Shown here: one piece after another, positions 27,130 to 35,391 of the stretch
How positions within the stretch are numbered: position 1 is the stretch's first letter
Layout: the number at the start of each line of letters is the position of its first letter
Source: Granulicella sp.
Lineage (GTDB): Bacteria; Acidobacteriota; Terriglobia; Terriglobales; Acidobacteriaceae
NCBI GenBank assembly: GCA_027365345.1
Contig: DAHXNO010000077.1
Coordinates: forward strand, 1-35,416
DNA length: 35,416 nt
Direction of reading: 5' to 3'
The notes under the pieces: model-generated
The model's database searches: none
What the model saw: the letters and a program-made list of their open reading frames with translations, nothing else
What the model was told of the DNA's origin: nothing
Position numbers and translations under genes: made by a program

Positions 27130-28173
27130 TCACCCCAGCAACACCGGCTCGCGCTCCAGCGTAATACCAAAGCGATCCTTCACTCCAGCCACAATCTGCG
27201 CCTGCAACCTCTCAATATCGGCACACATCGCCCCCCCCCGATTCGTCAAAGCCAGCGTATGCCGCGTGGAGATCCCCGCCGGCCCATCCCCAAACCCCTT
27301 CACAAACCCCGCCCGCTCCAGCAGCCAAGCCGCCGGAATCTTGATCTGCCCCATCCCCGCCGGCCAGCTCGGAACCGCTTCCGGCTGCACCCCGGCCCCT
27401 GCGGCCACTGCCGCCAGGTGCTCCAAACCCACAACCGGATTCTTGAAGAACGACCCCGCGCTTCGGCAGTCCGCATCTCCCTCCACCAGCAGCATTCCTT
27501 TCTCTCGCCGTATCTCCCGCACGGTCGCGGCCACGGCCGCCAAACTCAACTCCTCCCGCCCACCCAACCGGCGCTCCAGATCCGCATAGCGAAGGTTCGG
27601 CCTTCCTCCCGGCCGCAGCCGGAACCTCACTCGGGTCACAATATACCGCTCCGGCTCATCGCTGTTGAACACGCTCTGCCGATAGCGAAACCGGCACTCT
27701 GCCTTATCCAGCCGAACCCAATCCTTGCTCCTCCGATCGAAGGCCCGCACCCACTCAATCGTCTCAGACACCTCCTGCCCATAGGCGCCAACGTTCTGCA
27801 CCGGAGTTCCTCCCACAGACCCCGGAATCCCCGCCAGGCACTCTACACCGGCCATCCCCTGCCCCACGGCCATCTCCACAAACACGTCCCACACCTCCCC
27901 TGCGCCCACCTCAAAGCAGCCGTCTCCGCAGGCCTCCACGCCCATCACTCCCATCTTCAGCACCAGACCGTCGAATCCCTCATCCCGCACCAGAAGATTG
28001 CTTCCCCCTCCCAGAATGAAAAGCCGCAGCCCTCGCTCTTCCGCCCACGCCACCCCCTCGGCAACCTGGCGCTCGGTCTCCGCAACCGCAAAGTAGCGCG
28101 CTGCTCCGCCAATCCCAAACGTAGTCAGCGGAGCCAGCGGTATCTGTCCCTCAACCTGCAACCCTATCGGCAC
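27130..28173 (-). CDS. murB: UDP-N-acetylenolpyruvoylglucosamine reductase
   Basis: FAD enzyme that makes UDP-N-acetylmuramate, an early cytoplasmic step of peptidoglycan synthesis. The 347-residue protein opens with LAPLTTFGIGGAARYF, has the FAD-binding LFILGGGSNLLVRDEGF and AGIPGSVGGTPVQNVGAYGQ, and the proton-donor serine motif CRSAGSFFKNP. The RFRYRQSVFNSDEPERYIVT insert and the length point to the E. coli-like type I enzyme. The start is a GTG at 28173; no in-frame ATG is near. It stands alone, convergent with modC and divergent from the bacilliredoxin gene. Confidence 0.95.
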   Translation of the reverse strand: MPIGLQVEGQIPLAPLTTFGIGGAARYFAVAETERQVAEGVAWAEERGLRLFILGGGSNLLVRDEGFDGLVLKMGVMGVEACGDGCFEVGAGEVWDVFVEMAVGQGMAGVECLAGIPGSVGGTPVQNVGAYGQEVSETIEWVRAFDRRSKDWVRLDKAECRFRYRQSVFNSDEPERYIVTRVRFRLRPGGRPNLRYADLERRLGGREELSLAAVAATVREIRREKGMLLVEGDADCRSAGSFFKNPVVGLEHLAAVAAGAGVQPEAVPSWPAGMGQIKIPAAWLLERAGFVKGFGDGPAGISTRHTLALTNRGGAMCADIERLQAQIVAGVKDRFGITLEREPVLLG

Positions 28174-28344: not shown

Positions 28345-28770
28345 ATGTACCCAGAGATCATGCTCATCCCCATGCGCGAGGAACTCACCACAGCCGGTAT
28401 CACAGAAGCTCGAACCGCAGCCGAGGTGGACGCAGCTCTGGCCAAGCCCGGAACCACCATGGTCGTCGTCAACTCCGTCTGCGGCTGCGCCGCGGGCAAG
28501 ATGCGTCCCGGCGTCCGCCTCGCCCTCCAGCATGGCCAGACGCCTGACCGCACCATCAGCGTCTTCGCCGGCCAGGACCGCGAAGCCACCGAGCGCGCCC
28601 GCAGCTACTTCCAGGGTCACCCTCCCACCTCACCGGCTGTGGCCATCCTTCGCGACGGCCAGTTGATCTACCTGCTGCAACGCTCCGCCATTGAGAACTC
28701 CACTGCTCCGGCCATCGCCCAGGAACTCACCCGCGCCTTCGACACCTACTGCGCCGCCTCAACCGTGTAG
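28345..28770 (+). CDS. Bacilliredoxin (BrxA/BrxB, YphP/YqiW family)
   Basis: A 141-residue small thiol protein of the DUF1094 family. It opens with MYPEIMLIPMREEL and carries the unusual C-G-C active site (Cys46 and Cys48 in SVCGCAAGKMRPG), followed by the family's TPDRTISVFAGQDREAT and PPTSPAVAILRDG. In Firmicutes, BrxA and BrxB remove bacillithiol from oxidised proteins; here the physiological thiol is unknown. AGGAGG lies seven bases before the ATG, a near-ideal ribosome site, so high translation is likely. The next gene on the same strand is 189 bases away. Confidence 0.93.
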   Translation: MYPEIMLIPMREELTTAGITEARTAAEVDAALAKPGTTMVVVNSVCGCAAGKMRPGVRLALQHGQTPDRTISVFAGQDREATERARSYFQGHPPTSPAVAILRDGQLIYLLQRSAIENSTAPAIAQELTRAFDTYCAASTV

Positions 28771-28959
28771 CCGTAGCCAAGCCTTAACCGCAGCCAACCC
28801 AATCCCAGCCGACTCACCTCTTTCCGCCCCGCGCCCGCGGGCGCTGCCGGAGATCCCCGTCCAGCTCCACCCCACCCGGCAACTCCGCCCCCTGCCGCAG
28901 CCGAAGGCCCATTTTCGCTCTTGGCTAAACGATCTCTTCGATCTGCCGATAGGTAGATC

Positions 28960-29952
28960 ATGTCTGATCTCCATCGGGTACCCAATCCATCTCCGACCGT
29001 AAATCTTCCATCTCCGGAGATGAATCCGCAGCCGCCGGCCCCGGCGCTCTGGCTGGATGGAGCCAGCGCCGTCATCACCCAGTTGCGCGGCCAGATCCGC
29101 CGCGTCGCTCCGTACTTCCGGACGGCCTTGCTCACCGGCGAGCGCGGTTGTGGAGAAGAAGCTGCCGCCCGTCTCCTGCACCAGTTCTCGCCCGTCAAAG
29201 ATCGTCCCTTCGTCATCCTCACCTCCACAGAGGCGGAGCGCCTTCTCAGCAGGCCGGATGCGCACAACACCCTGGCCGGCAAAGGGATGTGCTATCTCCC
29301 CCGCCCGGAGCGCATTCCACGCAGCGCCCAGAATGTGCTCTTGCACCTGGTACGCAAGTTTGGCCCCCAGGCGCCGCGGATCGTCGCCTTTGCCGAGCGC
29401 GGCCTGCGCCCGCTGGTCAGCGCCAACAGTTTCTCCGCGGAGCTGGCAGACTGCCTCGGAGCTCTGCGCATCGTCATCCCACCCCTTCGCGACCGCCGCG
29501 AAGATGTTCCTCAACTCCTCACCCAAATTCTGGATGGCATGGCCTCTCAGGCCGGAACCTCCTCGCCCCAGCTCTCTCCCAATCTGCTTGAAGCCGCCCG
29601 TCGGCTCCCCTGGCCCGGTAACCTTCCCCAACTCTATGCCACTGCGGAAGGCCTCTTCCAACGCGGCGCTCTGCTGGAAGGCGAAGCCGTCCTTGAAGCC
29701 TCTGACCTGGAATCCGTCCTCGGCAGCGCGCCCCAGCCTACGCCAAACCAGCGCCGCGAGACCCGCATGATGCGTCTCCAGGACGTCATCCAGGAGCACA
29801 TTCGCTCGGTCTTGCTGGCCTGCAACGGCAATAAGCTGCGCACCGCGGAGGTCCTGGGCATCAGCCGCTCCACCCTCTACCGCATGCTGGATGCCTCCGC
29901 CAAGTCGCATCCTGAAGCCATCCTCCCCACCCCGCTGGATCGCGCTGGCTGA
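28960..29952 (+). CDS. Degenerate NtrC-like protein with Fis-type DNA-binding domain
   Basis: A 330-residue protein laid out like the AAA+ and Fis parts of a sigma-54 activator, but with the ATPase worn away. LLTGERGCGEEAAA stands where the Walker A GESGTGKE should be (Lys replaced by Glu). The segment that should carry GAFTGA is missing. Walker B is GMCYLPRPE instead of GTLFLDEI, and sensor II is WPGNLPQL instead of WPGNVREL. The fold-defining IVIPPLRDRREDVPQLL remains. The C-terminal helix-turn-helix is intact: LLACNGNKLRTAEVLGISRSTLYRMLD. It therefore probably binds DNA but should not hydrolyse ATP or activate sigma-54. An AGG precedes the ATG at 28960. No response-regulator domain is present. 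Confidence 0.85.
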   Translation: MSDLHRVPNPSPTVNLPSPEMNPQPPAPALWLDGASAVITQLRGQIRRVAPYFRTALLTGERGCGEEAAARLLHQFSPVKDRPFVILTSTEAERLLSRPDAHNTLAGKGMCYLPRPERIPRSAQNVLLHLVRKFGPQAPRIVAFAERGLRPLVSANSFSAELADCLGALRIVIPPLRDRREDVPQLLTQILDGMASQAGTSSPQLSPNLLEAARRLPWPGNLPQLYATAEGLFQRGALLEGEAVLEASDLESVLGSAPQPTPNQRRETRMMRLQDVIQEHIRSVLLACNGNKLRTAEVLGISRSTLYRMLDASAKSHPEAILPTPLDRAG

Positions 29953-30059
29953 GCGGAATCTCCTTCTCGCCGATCCACCGAATTTCGCAGCCAGGAAGGC
30001 ACTGGCAGCCTGGGAACCGCAGCGCCCCGCCCGCTCCAACCTGCGCTTCCCCTATCCCC

Positions 30060-32513
30060 TTATCTCTGCGCCTGCTCTACCGGAGCCACCCGTGGCCTCA
30101 CCCCGTTGACACCCTCGGCATAGCGCGCAATCCCCCGATACAAGCTCTCCGCCACCCGCTCCCGATACTGCGGCGTCTCCAGCTCCGCCGCGCTCTTGGG
30201 ATTGGTCACAAACCCAATCTCCGCCAGAATCGACGGCATGTTCGCTCCAATCAGCACCACAAACGGAGCCTTCTTCACCCCTCGATTCCTCAGCCCCGGG
30301 TTTCCTTTACGCTGCCCCGCATACAGTGACGCATCCACATCTGCGGCCAGCTCCCGGCTCTCGTCGATCTTGTCCTGCAGTGCGATCTTCTTCACCAGAT
30401 CGCTCAGCTCATGCACACTCTGGGTAGATACGGCATTCTCGCGCGAGGCCACCATCATCGCCTCCGGATCGCTGGTGAAGTTCAGGTAGTACACCTCCAC
30501 CCCGCTTACGCCCGGGTCTCGCGAACTGTTGGCATGCACGCTGATAAACAGATCCGCCTGCGCCTTGTTGGCAATCGCGGTTCGTGTCTCCAGTGGCACA
30601 AACGTGTCGTCGTCGCGGGTGTACACCACATCGGCGCCCAGCCGTTCCTGCAACAACTTGCCCAGCCGCAGCGCCACATCCAGCACCACATCCTTCTCTT
30701 CGATCCCGCCCACACCCAGCGTTCCGGAGTCGTGCCCGCCATGCCCCGCGTCAATCACAATCCGGTCGATCTTCAACCCCAGGGTGCGCATCAGTGACGT
30801 CTCCCCACCGCTCGTAGGCGGCGGCACAGGAGCCGGCGCGCCTCTCACCTCTGCCACTGCCGGAGCCGTATCTGGCGCAGCAACTGCATGCCTCGTCTTG
30901 AACCTTGACCCTTGCCTCGGCGCCATGCCCAGCTCTCGGCTCGTCTCGGCGATCGGCTTCGACGTGGGCTGGCGCGTCGCCTCCACCATCCCCGGCTGCT
31001 CGCTAACATCCGCAACCTCGGCATCGCTCTCCGCCAGGCTCGCGCCCGCGGTATCCGGCGCAGGTCTCGCCAAGCTGCGCCTTTGCGCCATCACCACCCG
31101 TGGCCGCGCTCCGGCCCCGCTCTCGCCCGGCTGCGGCAGCCCAAAGCTCGCTCTCCCATCCGTCACCGGCATCGCTGGCAGGCTGGACACCTCCATTCCC
31201 CTACCACTCCCCGCCGCTCCCAATGCGTTCTCACCCTGCGTCTCGGCCGCCAAACCTGCCGCCAAACCTCCACCCGCCTGCGTCGCCGCCGAATCCGCCC
31301 CCGCTCCTCCCGCCGAATCCGGCGTCTGGCTCACCTGCTGGCCGCCCGGATCGCCGTGGATATCGATGATCAACCGGTACGGATTCGGCAGGCAAAACGC
31401 CGAATACGCCGTCACCTGATGAACATCCAGCACCACCCGGGTCACATCGTTCTTGAACTGCGCCGCCCGAACCCTCTTGAGAAACCCATCATCGGTCACC
31501 GTAATGCTCTTGCCCACCAACGCGTTGCCCAGCCGCGCATGTTCCAGGTCAAAAAAGATCCGGTCAGGATGCTCCACCCGCGCGGCCTCGTACTTCACCA
31601 CCTCTCCCGGCGCTACGTTCAGGTCGATCGCCACTCGCGTATAGCTGGCCGTTGACCAGTGCCGAATCCCGGTCACCACCTCCAGCGGCCCACTCGCCGC
31701 TCCCGTCGCCCCTTGCCCCTGCGTTGCGCTCGTGTCTGCCAGCCTCGCGCCCATCCCTGCCGCCGTCCCGCTCTCGCGCAGCCCCACCCTCGCTGCGCCC
31801 GCGCCATCCGATCCGGACTTCGGAACGGAAGCCTCCGAGCTCTTCTCCCTTCCATCCTCCATCGAATCGGAAGCGGCTGGCAGCATCTCGGCAACCCCCT
31901 TCGCACCCTCCGTCTCTCCTCCGCCAGCCGCCGCACTACCGCTTCGCTCCGCCTGCGGATAATCCTCCGCCAGCTCCGCTCGAATCTTCTTCTCCTCTGC
32001 CGCGTCGCCTGCTCCCGGCGCAGCCTCCGATCCCAACAGCTTCAGCGCCCGCTCCAACGCCACCGGAGCCAATCTGTCTCCGGGATAGGCCTTGGCCAGA
32101 TACTCATACTGCCCCACTGCGGCTGCCAGGCTCTTGGCATCGTGCAGCTCGCGTCCCCGCTCGGCAAACAACTCGGCCACCGCCTCCACCGCTGCGGCCG
32201 CATGTTCACCCCCGGGGTCGCCGCGATAGATCACACGAAACTCATTCATCACATGCTCATAGGCCTCGCGAGTATGCATCCTCACCGGCTCAGCCTCAAA
32301 CTGCCGCCGCACCTGTAACGCCTCTTTCCAGGCGGAAGCGGACCCTCCCCCGGAGCTTTCGACGGCCAAGCGCACCCCGGCCCCGCTCGCAGCCCATCCC
32401 GTGGCCGCTCCCACACCTCCCACACACAACCCCAAAAGCGCAAAAACCACCAACCCCCGGCGGCTGGCACCCCCCCCACCACCCTGACTATTACCGCTCC
32501 GCAAGGGATCCAT
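30060..32513 (-). CDS. N-acetylmuramoyl-L-alanine amidase with AMIN domain
   Basis: An 817-residue exported cell-wall hydrolase that cleaves the bond between muramic acid and L-alanine. The ATG at 32513 is followed by a basic patch and a hydrophobic segment (RRGLVVFALLGLCVGGVGAA). Next come a TPR-like helical region (~60-165), a long low-complexity stretch, an AMIN domain that targets the enzyme to the envelope (~278-390, VVTGIRHWSTASYTRVAID), a second disordered stretch and the amidase_3 domain (~580-805). Zinc ligands are His591 (DAGHGGHDSG), Glu606 (GIEEKD) and His660 (SVHANS); the catalytic Glu765 is in LAEIGFVTN. It lies 88 bases after alaS on the same strand. The open frame continues upstream into alaS, but that part looks antisense-like. 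Confidence 0.92.
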   Translation of the reverse strand: MDPLRSGNSQGGGGGASRRGLVVFALLGLCVGGVGAATGWAASGAGVRLAVESSGGGSASAWKEALQVRRQFEAEPVRMHTREAYEHVMNEFRVIYRGDPGGEHAAAAVEAVAELFAERGRELHDAKSLAAAVGQYEYLAKAYPGDRLAPVALERALKLLGSEAAPGAGDAAEEKKIRAELAEDYPQAERSGSAAAGGGETEGAKGVAEMLPAASDSMEDGREKSSEASVPKSGSDGAGAARVGLRESGTAAGMGARLADTSATQGQGATGAASGPLEVVTGIRHWSTASYTRVAIDLNVAPGEVVKYEAARVEHPDRIFFDLEHARLGNALVGKSITVTDDGFLKRVRAAQFKNDVTRVVLDVHQVTAYSAFCLPNPYRLIIDIHGDPGGQQVSQTPDSAGGAGADSAATQAGGGLAAGLAAETQGENALGAAGSGRGMEVSSLPAMPVTDGRASFGLPQPGESGAGARPRVVMAQRRSLARPAPDTAGASLAESDAEVADVSEQPGMVEATRQPTSKPIAETSRELGMAPRQGSRFKTRHAVAAPDTAPAVAEVRGAPAPVPPPTSGGETSLMRTLGLKIDRIVIDAGHGGHDSGTLGVGGIEEKDVVLDVALRLGKLLQERLGADVVYTRDDDTFVPLETRTAIANKAQADLFISVHANSSRDPGVSGVEVYYLNFTSDPEAMMVASRENAVSTQSVHELSDLVKKIALQDKIDESRELAADVDASLYAGQRKGNPGLRNRGVKKAPFVVLIGANMPSILAEIGFVTNPKSAAELETPQYRERVAESLYRGIARYAEGVNGVRPRVAPVEQAQR

Positions 32514-32601
32514 ACCCTCAAGTGTAAGGTTCCACCCCTGCTCCACCTGCCTGTGAATCCGCCAGAGGTACCGCGTCGAATACCTCGCCGTCTCCGTCCT
32601 T

Positions 32602-35391
32602 TTACAACAACTCCCCCACCACATCCTTGGCCCCGGCCAGCGCCGCGTCCAGCCCGGCAGCATCGCTTCCACCAGCCTCGGCCAGGTCCGGCCTTCCACC
32701 GCCCTTGCCGCCGACCTTGGCCGCAATCGCGCCCACAATCTTGCCCGCCTGCACCCTCCCGGTCAGGTCCTTGCTCACGCCCACAATCAGGTTCACTCGC
32801 CCCTCCGCATTGGCCGCGCCCAGCACCACCACGCCGCTGCCCAGCTTTCCGCGCAGCTCATCCACCAGGTTCCGCATCTGCGCCTTTGCCTCTGGCGAAG
32901 CCCCCAGCGCATCCACCCTCTGCGCCAGCACCTTCACTCCCTTCACCTCCACGGCCAAAGCTACCCCATCGGCCGCGGCCGCGCTGGCAGACTTCATCCG
33001 CAACCCCTCCAGTTCCTTGCGCAGCCTCCTCATCTCCTCCTCCAGGGCGTTTATCCTGGCCCGCAGAGCTTCGCCACTCACCTCACCCCCACCCACAAAC
33101 TGGCCCGCCGCCCTCGCTACCTCCGCATCCCGCCGGAACACGCCCAGTGCTCCCATCCCGGTCACAGCCTCCACCCGGCGCACCCCACTGGCCACGGCCC
33201 CTTCGCCCAGTAGCTTCAACACCCCAATCTCTCCGGTCGCCCCGGTATGCGTTCCTCCGCACAGCTCCGTGGAAAAGTCTCCAATCTTCACCACCCTCAC
33301 CTTGTCTCCATACTTCTCGCCAAACAGGGCCATGGCTCCCAGCTCATGCACCGCCACATCAATCGGCACATCCACCAGCGTCTCCACCGGGGTATTCTTC
33401 AGCACCTGCGCATTCACCATGCTTTCAATCTCTTCCATCTCCTGCTCGGCCACGCCGGTAAAGTGGCTAAAGTCGAATCGCAACCGCGTCCGGTCATTCA
33501 ACGAACCCGCCTGCTTCACATGCGTACCCAGTACCTGCCGCAAAGCCGCATGCAGCAGATGCGTTCCAGTATGGTTGCGCATCACAGCCTGACGAACGGC
33601 CGGGTCTACCACCGCATCCACCAGATCGCCCACCGCCAGGGTCTGCTTCGCCACCACCTGATGCGCATACACCCCCTGCACCGGCTTCCTGCACCCGCGC
33701 ACCTCAGCCACCACGGACTGGTGATCGCTCGCATAAAACCAGCCCACATCTCCCACCTGTCCACCGGAATCCGCATAGAAGCTCGTAGCATCCAGCACCA
33801 CCTCGCCCGCCTCGCCGGCGCCGAGCGCAGGCACGCCCACGCCATCCTTCACCAACGCCAGCACCTTGGCGCCCTCCACCCGCAGCGACGTGTACCCCTC
33901 AAACTCCGTCTTCGCCAGCTCCCTGTAGACCGGCGCGGCCGTCTTCTGCGACCCACCCTTCCAGGAGGCCCGCGCCCGCGCCTGCTCCTCTTCTTTGGCC
34001 CGGTCAAATCCGGCTGTATCAAAATCCAGGCCGGCATCTCTCGCCGCATCCACCATAAAGTCCAGCGGCAGGCCAAAGGTCTCGTAGAGGTGGAAGCCCT
34101 CCCGCCCCTCGATCCTCAGCCCCTTCTCAACCTCCTGCTCTGCGGAAGCGCTCCCGGCCTCACCCGCCATCCCAGCCGCGGCCAGCCGTTTCGCGGCGAT
34201 AAGCTGGTCCAGTTGTCCAGATCCAATCTCCATCACCCGTGCAAACTGCTCTTCCTCCGCCAGCACCACCTTGGCAACCCGCTCCGCGCTCTCCTTCAGC
34301 TCGGGATACGCAGACTGCATCTCATCGCGAACCGCCCCCACCATGGCGTGCAGAAACGGCTTCTCCTGCCCCAGCAGCCGCCCATGCCGAATGCCGCGGC
34401 GCAGAATCTTGCGCAGCACATAGCCTCGTCCGTCGTTCCCCGGCATCACCCCATCGGAGATCAGGAACGTCGCCGCCCGCGCGTGGTCGGCGATAATCCG
34501 CAGCGACGCGGCGCCCTTCTCGTCGCTCACCGCCAGTTCCCCGATCCGCTCGCTGGCCAACCCACCTCCGCCAAACTCCACCAGATCCGCGGCTCTTTGG
34601 ATCAGCGGCGTAAACAGATCGCTCTCGTAGTTGCTCAGCTTGCCTTGCAACACGCATGCCACCCGCTCCAATCCCATCCCTGTATCAATGGAGGGCTTGG
34701 GCAGCGGCGTCAGCACTCCATCGCTGCTGCGGTCAAACTGCATGAACACCAGGTTCCAGATCTCCATATAGCGCTGATCGTCCTCGGGAAAAGGACGGTC
34801 CTCTCCAGTCTCGCTGGCCTCCAACCCCAGGTCGATGAAGATCTCCGAACACGGGCCGCACGGGCCCGTATCGCCCATCTGCCAGAAGTTGTCTTTCATC
34901 CCCATGGCGAAGATGCGCTCCTTGGGAACGCCCACCTCCATCCACAACCGCTCGGCCTCGTCGTCCCGTGGCACCGCCCCAACCCCTTCAAACACGGTCA
35001 CATACAGCCTGTCCTTGTCGATCCCGAACCACTCCGGGCTGGTCAGCAGCTCCCAGGCAAAGGCGATCGCATCCTTCTTGAAATAATCGCCAAAGCTGAA
35101 GTTTCCCAGCATCTCAAAGAAGGTATGGTGCCGCCGCGTAAATCCCACATTCTCCAGGTCATTATGTTTACCCCCGGCGCGTACGCACTTCTGGCTGCTC
35201 GCGGCCCGGCAGTACTCCCGCGTCTCCGCTCCCAGAAAGACGTCTTTGAACTGATTCATCCCCGCATTGGTAAACAACAGCGTCGGATCGTTAGCCGGCT
35301 TCAAGCTGGACGAATGCACCCTGCGATGACCTTTGCCCTCGAAAAACCTCAAAAACTCTTCCCGAATCTCATTCCCTGACAAGTAGCGCAT
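32602..35391 (-). CDS. alaS: Alanyl-tRNA synthetase
   Basis: Complete 929-residue class II synthetase that charges tRNA-Ala. It opens with [20 protein letters not shown] and has motif 1 ([15 protein letters not shown]), motif 2 ([20 protein letters not shown]) and motif 3 ([15 protein letters not shown]) of the catalytic core. [12 protein letters not shown] binds the adenylate site. The editing domain carries the zinc residues [11 protein letters not shown] and CGGTHTG. The C-Ala domain ends in [15 protein letters not shown] short Ala/Gly/Glu-rich insert (around [20 protein letters not shown]) sits between the tRNA-recognition and editing parts. The ATG at 35391 lies 25 bases from the window end, so its promoter is outside. 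The amidase gene follows. Confidence 0.97.

Follow-up and report, generated by a model that had tools for sequence, protein, structure and literature searches.

PspF has a receiver-less layout in which an AAA+ domain is followed by a helix-turn-helix (HTH), and TyrR and DhaR carry ligand-sensing N-terminal domains. Loss of the GAFTGA motif removes the known sigma-54 contact of such proteins, and combined loss of the Walker A lysine and the sensor II arginine should abolish nucleotide binding. To our knowledge, the described GAFTGA-less relatives of bEBPs all keep a sensory domain, and most keep a usable P-loop. Established GAFTGA-less relatives include TyrR, DhaR, and HupR (available text of PMC3162934), and further non-canonical relatives without GAFTGA are the NtrC proteins of R. 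capsulatus and Caulobacter as well as VpsR (available text of PMC10274813). According to the same text of PMC10274813, R. capsulatus NtrC and VpsR act at sigma-70 promoters, and Caulobacter carrying NtrC K178A does not grow in defined medium.

We analyzed a stretch of 35,416 nucleotides of Granulicella sp. (assembly GCA_027365345.1, contig DAHXNO010000077.1), referred to here in its full length as the window; the genome that it comes from is G000. At positions 28960 to 29952 of the + strand, on which all features of the window lie unless noted otherwise, it encodes a degenerate bEBP-like regulator of 330 amino acids with an ATG start. Like R. capsulatus NtrC and HupR, this protein belongs to the NtrC family, has a deleted or changed L1 loop, and would be independent of sigma-54, a property that is predicted in our case (available text of PMC10274813 and PMC3162934). 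R. capsulatus NtrC undergoes phosphorylation and depends on ATP binding (available text of PMC10274813), whereas the window protein has neither a receiver nor the Walker A lysine and sensor II arginine. VpsR of Vibrio cholerae is also a GAFTGA-less relative acting at sigma-70 promoters and is reportedly ATP independent (available text of PMC10274813); the likeness is one of description and fold only (structure 7v2b scores a Z of 20.8 against the window-protein model), and VpsR differs in keeping its aspartyl phosphorylation site (same text) and in binding c-di-GMP (title of 7v2b). TyrR and DhaR of E. coli are likewise bEBP descendants without sigma-54 contact (available text of PMC3162934), whereas the window protein has only an N-terminal tail of about 30 amino acids. 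The layout of PspF resembles that of three intact orthologues described below, and PspF scores a Z of about 20.5 against the window-protein model but is an active sigma-54 ATPase. FleQ and FlbD are NtrC-family regulators of flagellar hierarchies that are able to repress (for FlbD, available text of PMC3930126). They have intact motifs and control early and middle genes, whereas the window gene has a putative promoter of the late, FliA type and persists where flagella are absent. As read from its sequence, what is new about the window protein relative to the known GAFTGA-less relatives is the absence of a sensory domain, the loss of the nucleotide-binding residues, and the FliA-type promoter. 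No such protein in Acidobacteria was found in a literature search limited largely to papers outside subscription.

The regulator keeps an AAA+ and HTH frame and has lost its ATPase motifs

The reality of the open reading frame is supported by its coding-like GC3 pattern. Pfam assigned residues 34 to 176 to Sigma54_activ_2 (9.5e-14), residues 177 to 263 to AAA_lid_14 (7.6e-11), and residues 278 to 308 to HTH_8 (1.2e-8), and it found no domain before residue 34 that would represent an N-terminal sensory or receiver domain. Among the NCBIfam matches listed (25 of 30), all were to NtrC-family or Fis models, and each was far under its own cut-off. The AAA+ alpha/beta core, also seen in the structure model, is thereby placed at 29059 to 29487, the lid at 29488 to 29748, and the Fis-type HTH, with the recognition helix ISRSTLYR, at 29791 to 29883. 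AlphaFold2, run with a 24-row alignment, predicted a bEBP-like AAA+ core (mean pLDDT 82, pTM 0.68), with residues 1 to 25 falling below a pLDDT of 50. Foldseek and VIA-align put residues 27 to 258 of the model with NtrC-family AAA+ domains. The Z values were 22.0 for NtrC1 (1ny5), 21.7 for NtrX, 21.1 for FlrC, 20.8 for VpsR, and 20.7 for FleQ; values within 1 of each other were treated as tied, so that no single structure counts as closest. Descent from the NtrC family, judged by the presence of an AAA+ core, a lid, and a Fis HTH, was borne out by Pfam, the model, and the tree.

The window protein was aligned with intact relatives. The Walker A motif GExGxGK has become GERGCGE, with the lysine replaced by glutamate (P-loop remnant GERGCGEE, residues 60 to 67, 29137 to 29160), and the L1/GAFTGA segment has undergone a deletion, beyond point mutation (about residues 88 to 108, 29221 to 29283). 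Walker B has changed from LFLDE to CYLPR, with P and R at both acid positions (former Walker B strand GMCYLPRPE, residues 109 to 117, 29284 to 29310). Sensor I has changed from ATN to AFAE, losing its asparagine, and sensor II from WPGNVREL to WPGNLPQL, losing its arginine (residues 218 to 225, 29611 to 29634). Such a protein would be expected to be unable to bind nucleotides. The first-pass annotation of this gene had listed the Walker A lysine, the Walker B acids, GAFTGA, and the sensor II arginine as lost, a list that the alignment bears out and to which the sensor I asparagine is added. Its statement that the outline of the AAA core and the Fis HTH are kept agrees with the Pfam matches, the AlphaFold2 core, and the conservation of the recognition helix given below. 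Its wording that all ATPase motifs were stripped away went too far, however, since a P-loop frame remains (E61, G63, and G65 are invariant in 24 of 24 aligned sequences), the arginine-finger motif LRDRREDVP is kept (residues 176 to 184, 29485 to 29511), and 9 of 22 orthologues in the genus, the window's not among the nine, are still acidic at the second Walker B position (E in five, D in four).

The degenerate state is conserved within the genus

Of the 28 genomes of the genus (Granulicella-like), 22 contain an orthologue by protein search, in each case without an internal stop. The Walker A lysine, GAFTGA, the sensor I asparagine, and the sensor II arginine are lost in every one of them, and losses common to the whole set are not due to chance. 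At the Walker A lysine position, E occurs in 13 orthologues, A in four, V and T in two each, and D in one. The first Walker B aspartate is absent throughout (one orthologue has Glu). In the arginine finger (LRxR..D), the second arginine and the aspartate are present in 22/22 and the first arginine in 21/22.

The dN/dS of the gene (NG86) was 0.076 to 0.124 in the six pairs among the four closest genomes (L001 to L004), similar to the values for brx (0.042 to 0.153) and murB (0.088 to 0.151) in the same genomes. Within these four, the stretch that was once the P-loop (residues 55 to 75) had a dN of 0 to 0.045, and the N-terminal 30 residues were looser (dN/dS 0.17 to 0.70). More distant pairs gave a dN/dS of 0.13 to 0.27, at high dS. 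Within the genus, mean pairwise identity was highest in the HTH (0.80), followed by the strand and P-loop stretch (residues 49 to 75; 0.71) and the part from the sensor I strand to the arginine finger (0.60); in the tails, the linker, the lid, and the former L1 and Walker B stretches it was 0.24 to 0.39. By these measures, the catalytic residues are less constrained than DNA binding and the frame formed by the P-loop and the arginine finger. The first-pass annotation had proposed homologues and dN/dS as a way to tell a conserved family from a single decaying gene, and both speak, at the level of sequence, for a conserved family under purifying selection.

Relatives outside the genus hold intact and intermediate forms

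Family and order searches with alignments yielded 40 further regions. A family member was present in 39 of them, and the remaining one, L187, encodes a longer, GAFTGA-containing protein that was classed as canonical. The family set comprised 63 sequences from 17 genera, 22 in the genus and 41 outside it. GAFTGA and the sensor I asparagine were present in only three of the 63 (L172 to L174). The Walker A lysine was found in 41/41 sequences outside the genus and in 0/22 inside, and the sensor II arginine in 40/41 and 0/22, respectively. Outside the genus, 38 sequences are without GAFTGA, and five of these keep the second Walker B acid. The sequence SRSTLYR of the recognition helix was identical in all 63 family members, and the preceding isoleucine was found in 61.

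The intact orthologues (Pfam domains confirmed for L173 and L174) all lie directly after brx, a gene of the bacilliredoxin BrxA/BrxB family that is also the conserved upstream neighbor in the window (28345 to 28770). DUF885 and proC follow behind L173 and L174, with one extra frame between in L174. Because of this common context, the intact and dead forms share one locus. In the IQ-TREE phylogeny, the genus formed a single clade (100/100); several inner branches outside the genus were weak, and the root was set at the midpoint. The changes needed on this tree were one for GAFTGA, one for the Walker A lysine, two for the sensor II arginine, three for Walker B, and two for sensor I. Intermediates exist among the Acidobacteriaceae relatives, in which GAFTGA and the sensor I asparagine are gone and Walker A and sensor II are kept. 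Together, the change counts and these extant forms suggest an order in which the sigma-54 contact and sensor I were lost first and the nucleotide-binding residues last, the latter in this genus only.

A sigma-28 (FliA)-type promoter-like element precedes the gene

The published sigma-28 consensus is TAAAGTTT-n11-GCCGATAA (available text of PMC2859248). In the window, a pattern match at 28926 to 28951 marks a putative sigma-28-type promoter with the -35 octamer TAAACGAT (28926 to 28933) and the -10 octamer GCCGATAG (28945 to 28952), which ends 7 nt before the ATG. Over 28926 to 28952, 5/8 and 7/8 bases agree with the consensus, at exact n11 spacing. This flagellar-type element was out of reach of the first-pass annotation. 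The pattern [CT]A[AT]-N15-17-GCCGAT[AG] was found upstream of the gene in 68 of 91 family loci from 17 genera. The 68 loci come from 13 genera and, because they are related, do not represent 68 independent events; the other 23 miss the strict pattern. In control runs on the same 91 loci, shuffled sequences gave a mean of 0.6 matches (200 runs, maximum 4), the reversed pattern gave 1, and the opposite strand gave 2. GCCGAT[AG] alone lies upstream in 85/91 loci. GCCGAT[AG] occurs exactly once in 79 loci, and in these the match to TAAAGTTT peaked at n11 (4.78 of 8 bases versus at most 3.44 at 12 other spacers), and the consensus of the eight bases at spacer 11 was TCATGTTT.

In 14 of the 22 genus loci, CCGATA begins 14 nt ahead of the start codon, and in 3 more the distance is 16 nt. 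Inspection by eye of the interval between brx and the gene showed, in many genus loci that were not counted, a terminator-like hairpin and then GCCGATA right before the ATG. Transcription usually starts 6 to 7 nt past the -10 box. Since the -10 octamer ends 7 nt before the ATG, the mRNA of the gene would be leaderless or near-leaderless, a claim that is less sure, as is the start codon itself, because constraint on the first 30 residues is weak.

The element also precedes two flgM genes (Pfam FlgM), as TAAAGTCT-n11-GCCGATG in L267 and as TAAAGTTT-n11-GCCGATG in L260, and one fliA gene (L264) is preceded by a weaker match to the pattern. In the 21 fliA and flagellar loci scanned, no such promoter was found before the flgM of L264 or before other flagellar genes. 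In G000, the strict pattern had 26 matches and its reversed control 12. Just two genes clearly follow an intergenic match: the regulator and a gene for a secreted CAP-domain protein (L236, 1546 to 2319, G000:C112), which lies about 20 nt after TAAAGTAA-n11-GCCGATA. The CAP-domain gene is a possible second member of the putative sigma-28 regulon.

The -10 box of the window is spanned by an inverted repeat, GATCT-N10-AGATC (28940 to 28959), that occurs only in the four closest genomes and could be a candidate operator or a product of chance. Gapped-palindrome counts, made on upstream windows that were partly coding DNA and with single-base shuffles, found no family-wide upstream palindrome. Those found were clade specific, namely, this repeat in L001 to L004 and GCCGA-N11-TCGGC in 10 loci.

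A FliA-type sigma factor is kept in genomes without flhA matches

G000 encodes a FliA/WhiG-type sigma factor (C180:11671-12333; 237.7 bits versus a cut-off of 189.6), and a genome search gave no FlhA/FHIPEP match in G000. The sigma factor lies outside any flagellar cluster (L263, G000:C180, 11599 to 12663, - strand). The adjacent gene encodes a sigma-54 activator for which the receiver match was weak and no HTH match was obtained; PNPase and a dienelactone hydrolase are encoded nearby, and flagellar genes are not. A crude pattern detected no flgM in 20 kb around this fliA.

Within the genus, fliA was detected in 20 of the 22 genomes that have the gene (in G001 as a partial match below the cut-off) and in three of six gene-negative genomes (G010, G017, and G026). 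The fliA-less genomes G002, G009, and G022, which are 99 to 100% complete, are also without the gene; they may be one clade and reflect one event. The gene is present without a fliA match in G008 and G023 (each 84% complete), and the -10 box of G008 is imperfect too. G017 has fliA and flhA but not the gene. flhA was found in one of the six gene-negative genomes and in just 12 of the 22 gene-positive ones, which ruled out flagella as the partner of the gene. Of the 10 gene-positive genomes that gave no flhA match, 8 thus keep fliA. In a sample of 300 genomes of the family, fliA was found in 77/87 gene-positive and 109/213 gene-negative genomes (Fisher p 3e-10, a value that ignores kinship and uses a post hoc cut-off, E <=2.2e-66 with A1); in this comparison, some true orthologues are counted as negative and at most nine fliA candidates per genome were scored. 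Ten of the 87 gene-positive genomes had no fliA match, and four of these are 97 to 99% complete.

FlgM-like anti-sigma factors lie shortly after orphan-type fliA genes in L260 (2479 to 2817) and L264 (17107 to 17382). The L260 copy belongs to G015 and has the TAAAGTTT-n11-GCCGATG promoter although G015 has no flhA match.

Proposed function and alternative explanations

We consider it probable that the protein is a nucleotide-independent, sigma-54-independent DNA-binding regulator that is expressed via a FliA-type sigma factor. It would descend from a receiver-less sigma-54 activator of PspF-like layout (AAA+, then Fis HTH) and would have lost sigma-54 use, ATP hydrolysis, and, in this genus, nucleotide binding too. 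The gene would be transcribed by FliA from the sigma-28/FliA-type promoter; because this promoter lies just before the start codon, the activity of the regulator would probably be set by FliA-dependent expression and not by phosphorylation or ATP. The AAA+ core would be kept as a rigid, nucleotide-free scaffold, probably holding the HTH as a dimer or oligomer, and the regulator would act at promoters that are used by RNA polymerase with the housekeeping sigma factor or FliA. A repressor or architectural role seems more likely than an activator; the preference for a repressor is a guess, made because no activation surface is visible.

The first-pass annotation had offered two readings, a sigma-54-independent regulator and an anti-activator. 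The former fits best with the absence of GAFTGA and of nucleotide-binding residues, the near-frozen HTH, and purifying selection. The latter, in which the protein would occupy the enhancers of canonical sigma-54 activators, or block those activators, and so damp sigma-54 promoters, is unlikely. G000 does contain rpoN and eleven other Sigma54_activat matches of at least 142 bits, a sigma-54 activator adjoins its fliA, and the regulator has kept its DNA-binding part and lost its activation parts; if this reading were true, it would amount to FliA-to-sigma-54 feedback. However, among the 12 other HTH_8 matches in G000, none of the nine C-termini that were read shares SRSTLYR as ISRSTLYR (the nearest is LSRSTLWR), and no HTH match was obtained for the activator adjoining fliA. 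FlgR of H. pylori, an activator without a DNA-binding domain, works enhancer-free (available text of PMC3930126); because an activator of this type needs no enhancer, an HTH-less one would present no site to compete for. The same HTH-less protein beside fliA could serve as the partner in a mixed AAA+ ring, to which the regulator, as a pseudo-subunit, would lend its arginine finger in trans while adding DNA binding to a canonical activator. The second arginine of LRxR and the following aspartate are kept in 22/22 orthologues despite the lost Walker A lysine, sensor I, and sensor II. LRxR may be structural as well, though, and subunits without GAFTGA would weaken the ring, and we find such an arrangement quite improbable.

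The GCCGATA element might be another conserved signal, used by a different sigma factor or as an operator, instead of a FliA promoter. The gene persists with the GCCGATG form in genomes without a fliA match (L119, L125, L128, and L151), and the element is missing from most flagellar genes scanned. We nevertheless give this explanation a low probability, as the two-part consensus with its exact n11 spacer equals the published sigma-28 consensus and the same element precedes two flgM genes. That the gene is a decaying pseudogene of an activator is hardly credible. Simple decay, according to the first-pass annotation, would be recognized by intact homologues combined with relaxed selection; intact orthologues do exist (L172 to L174), and four genus genomes have no gene between brx and proC, but selection shows no relaxation here. 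With a dN/dS of about 0.1, internal stops in 0/22 orthologues, and an HTH identity of 0.80 within the genus, decay was ruled out by the selection and conservation data.

The regulator proposed above could also be placed in a wider and more tentative scheme, which may well prove wrong, as a flagellar relic. Flagella-less Acidobacteriaceae would keep a FliA-type sigma factor at least partly to transcribe a nucleotide-free pseudo-bEBP, whose mRNA would be near-leaderless in this genus. An ATP-driven activator would have become an expression-controlled repressor by ordered loss (GAFTGA and sensor I, then most Walker B acids, and lastly nucleotide binding), with its DNA specificity unchanged. In one syntenic gene, stepwise forms link an intact sigma-54 activator to a protein devoid of nucleotide-binding residues, with the recognition helix nearly frozen, and the role of an AAA+ scaffold without ATP therefore becomes testable through orthologue swaps. 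The promoter would tie the gene to FliA in flagella-less organisms, offering a manageable system in which a flagellar-type sigma factor would have been retained for another use.

Genomic neighborhood

Within the genus, brx adjoins the gene in 22/22 loci, and murB (27130 to 28173, - strand), divergent from brx, lies beyond it in 20/22. On the 3' side, proC is found in 17/22 loci (proC and ctaA families by Pfam); the contigs of L031, L033, and L039 end after the gene, and the window and L046 carry other genes there. Where the 17 relatives have proC, the window instead carries amiC and alaS (29953 to 35391), a local rearrangement. In G002, G009, G017, and G022, brx is followed by proC with no gene between. 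Neither the gene nor brx was found in the genus genomes G010 and G026, where the absence of the gene may reflect an assembly gap, since brx is missing as well.

In one group of genera, brx, DUF885, proC, and ctaA are recurrent partners of the gene. In another genus (L169, L170, L171, and L191), the orthologue lies directly upstream of msrP-msrQ, a periplasmic methionine sulfoxide reductase (families verified on L170 only). In several genera (L158, L175, L178, L180, L181, L185, and others), genes for an HlyD-type adaptor and an ABC ATPase are followed by the orthologue; a divergent GWxTD-domain gene lies beyond, as in L158, on which the families were verified, and a DUF885 gene, often with proC, lies downstream. 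An oxidative-stress role suggested by the neighbors was dropped because the neighbors differ by genus, with HlyD-ABC or msrPQ beside the gene in other genera, and because no DUF885, proC, or ctaA follows the gene in the window. Near ctaA, L034 (10052 to 10387, - strand) and 13 similar loci encode a small protein, without a Pfam match, that carries HGTKVAARDT-like repeats.
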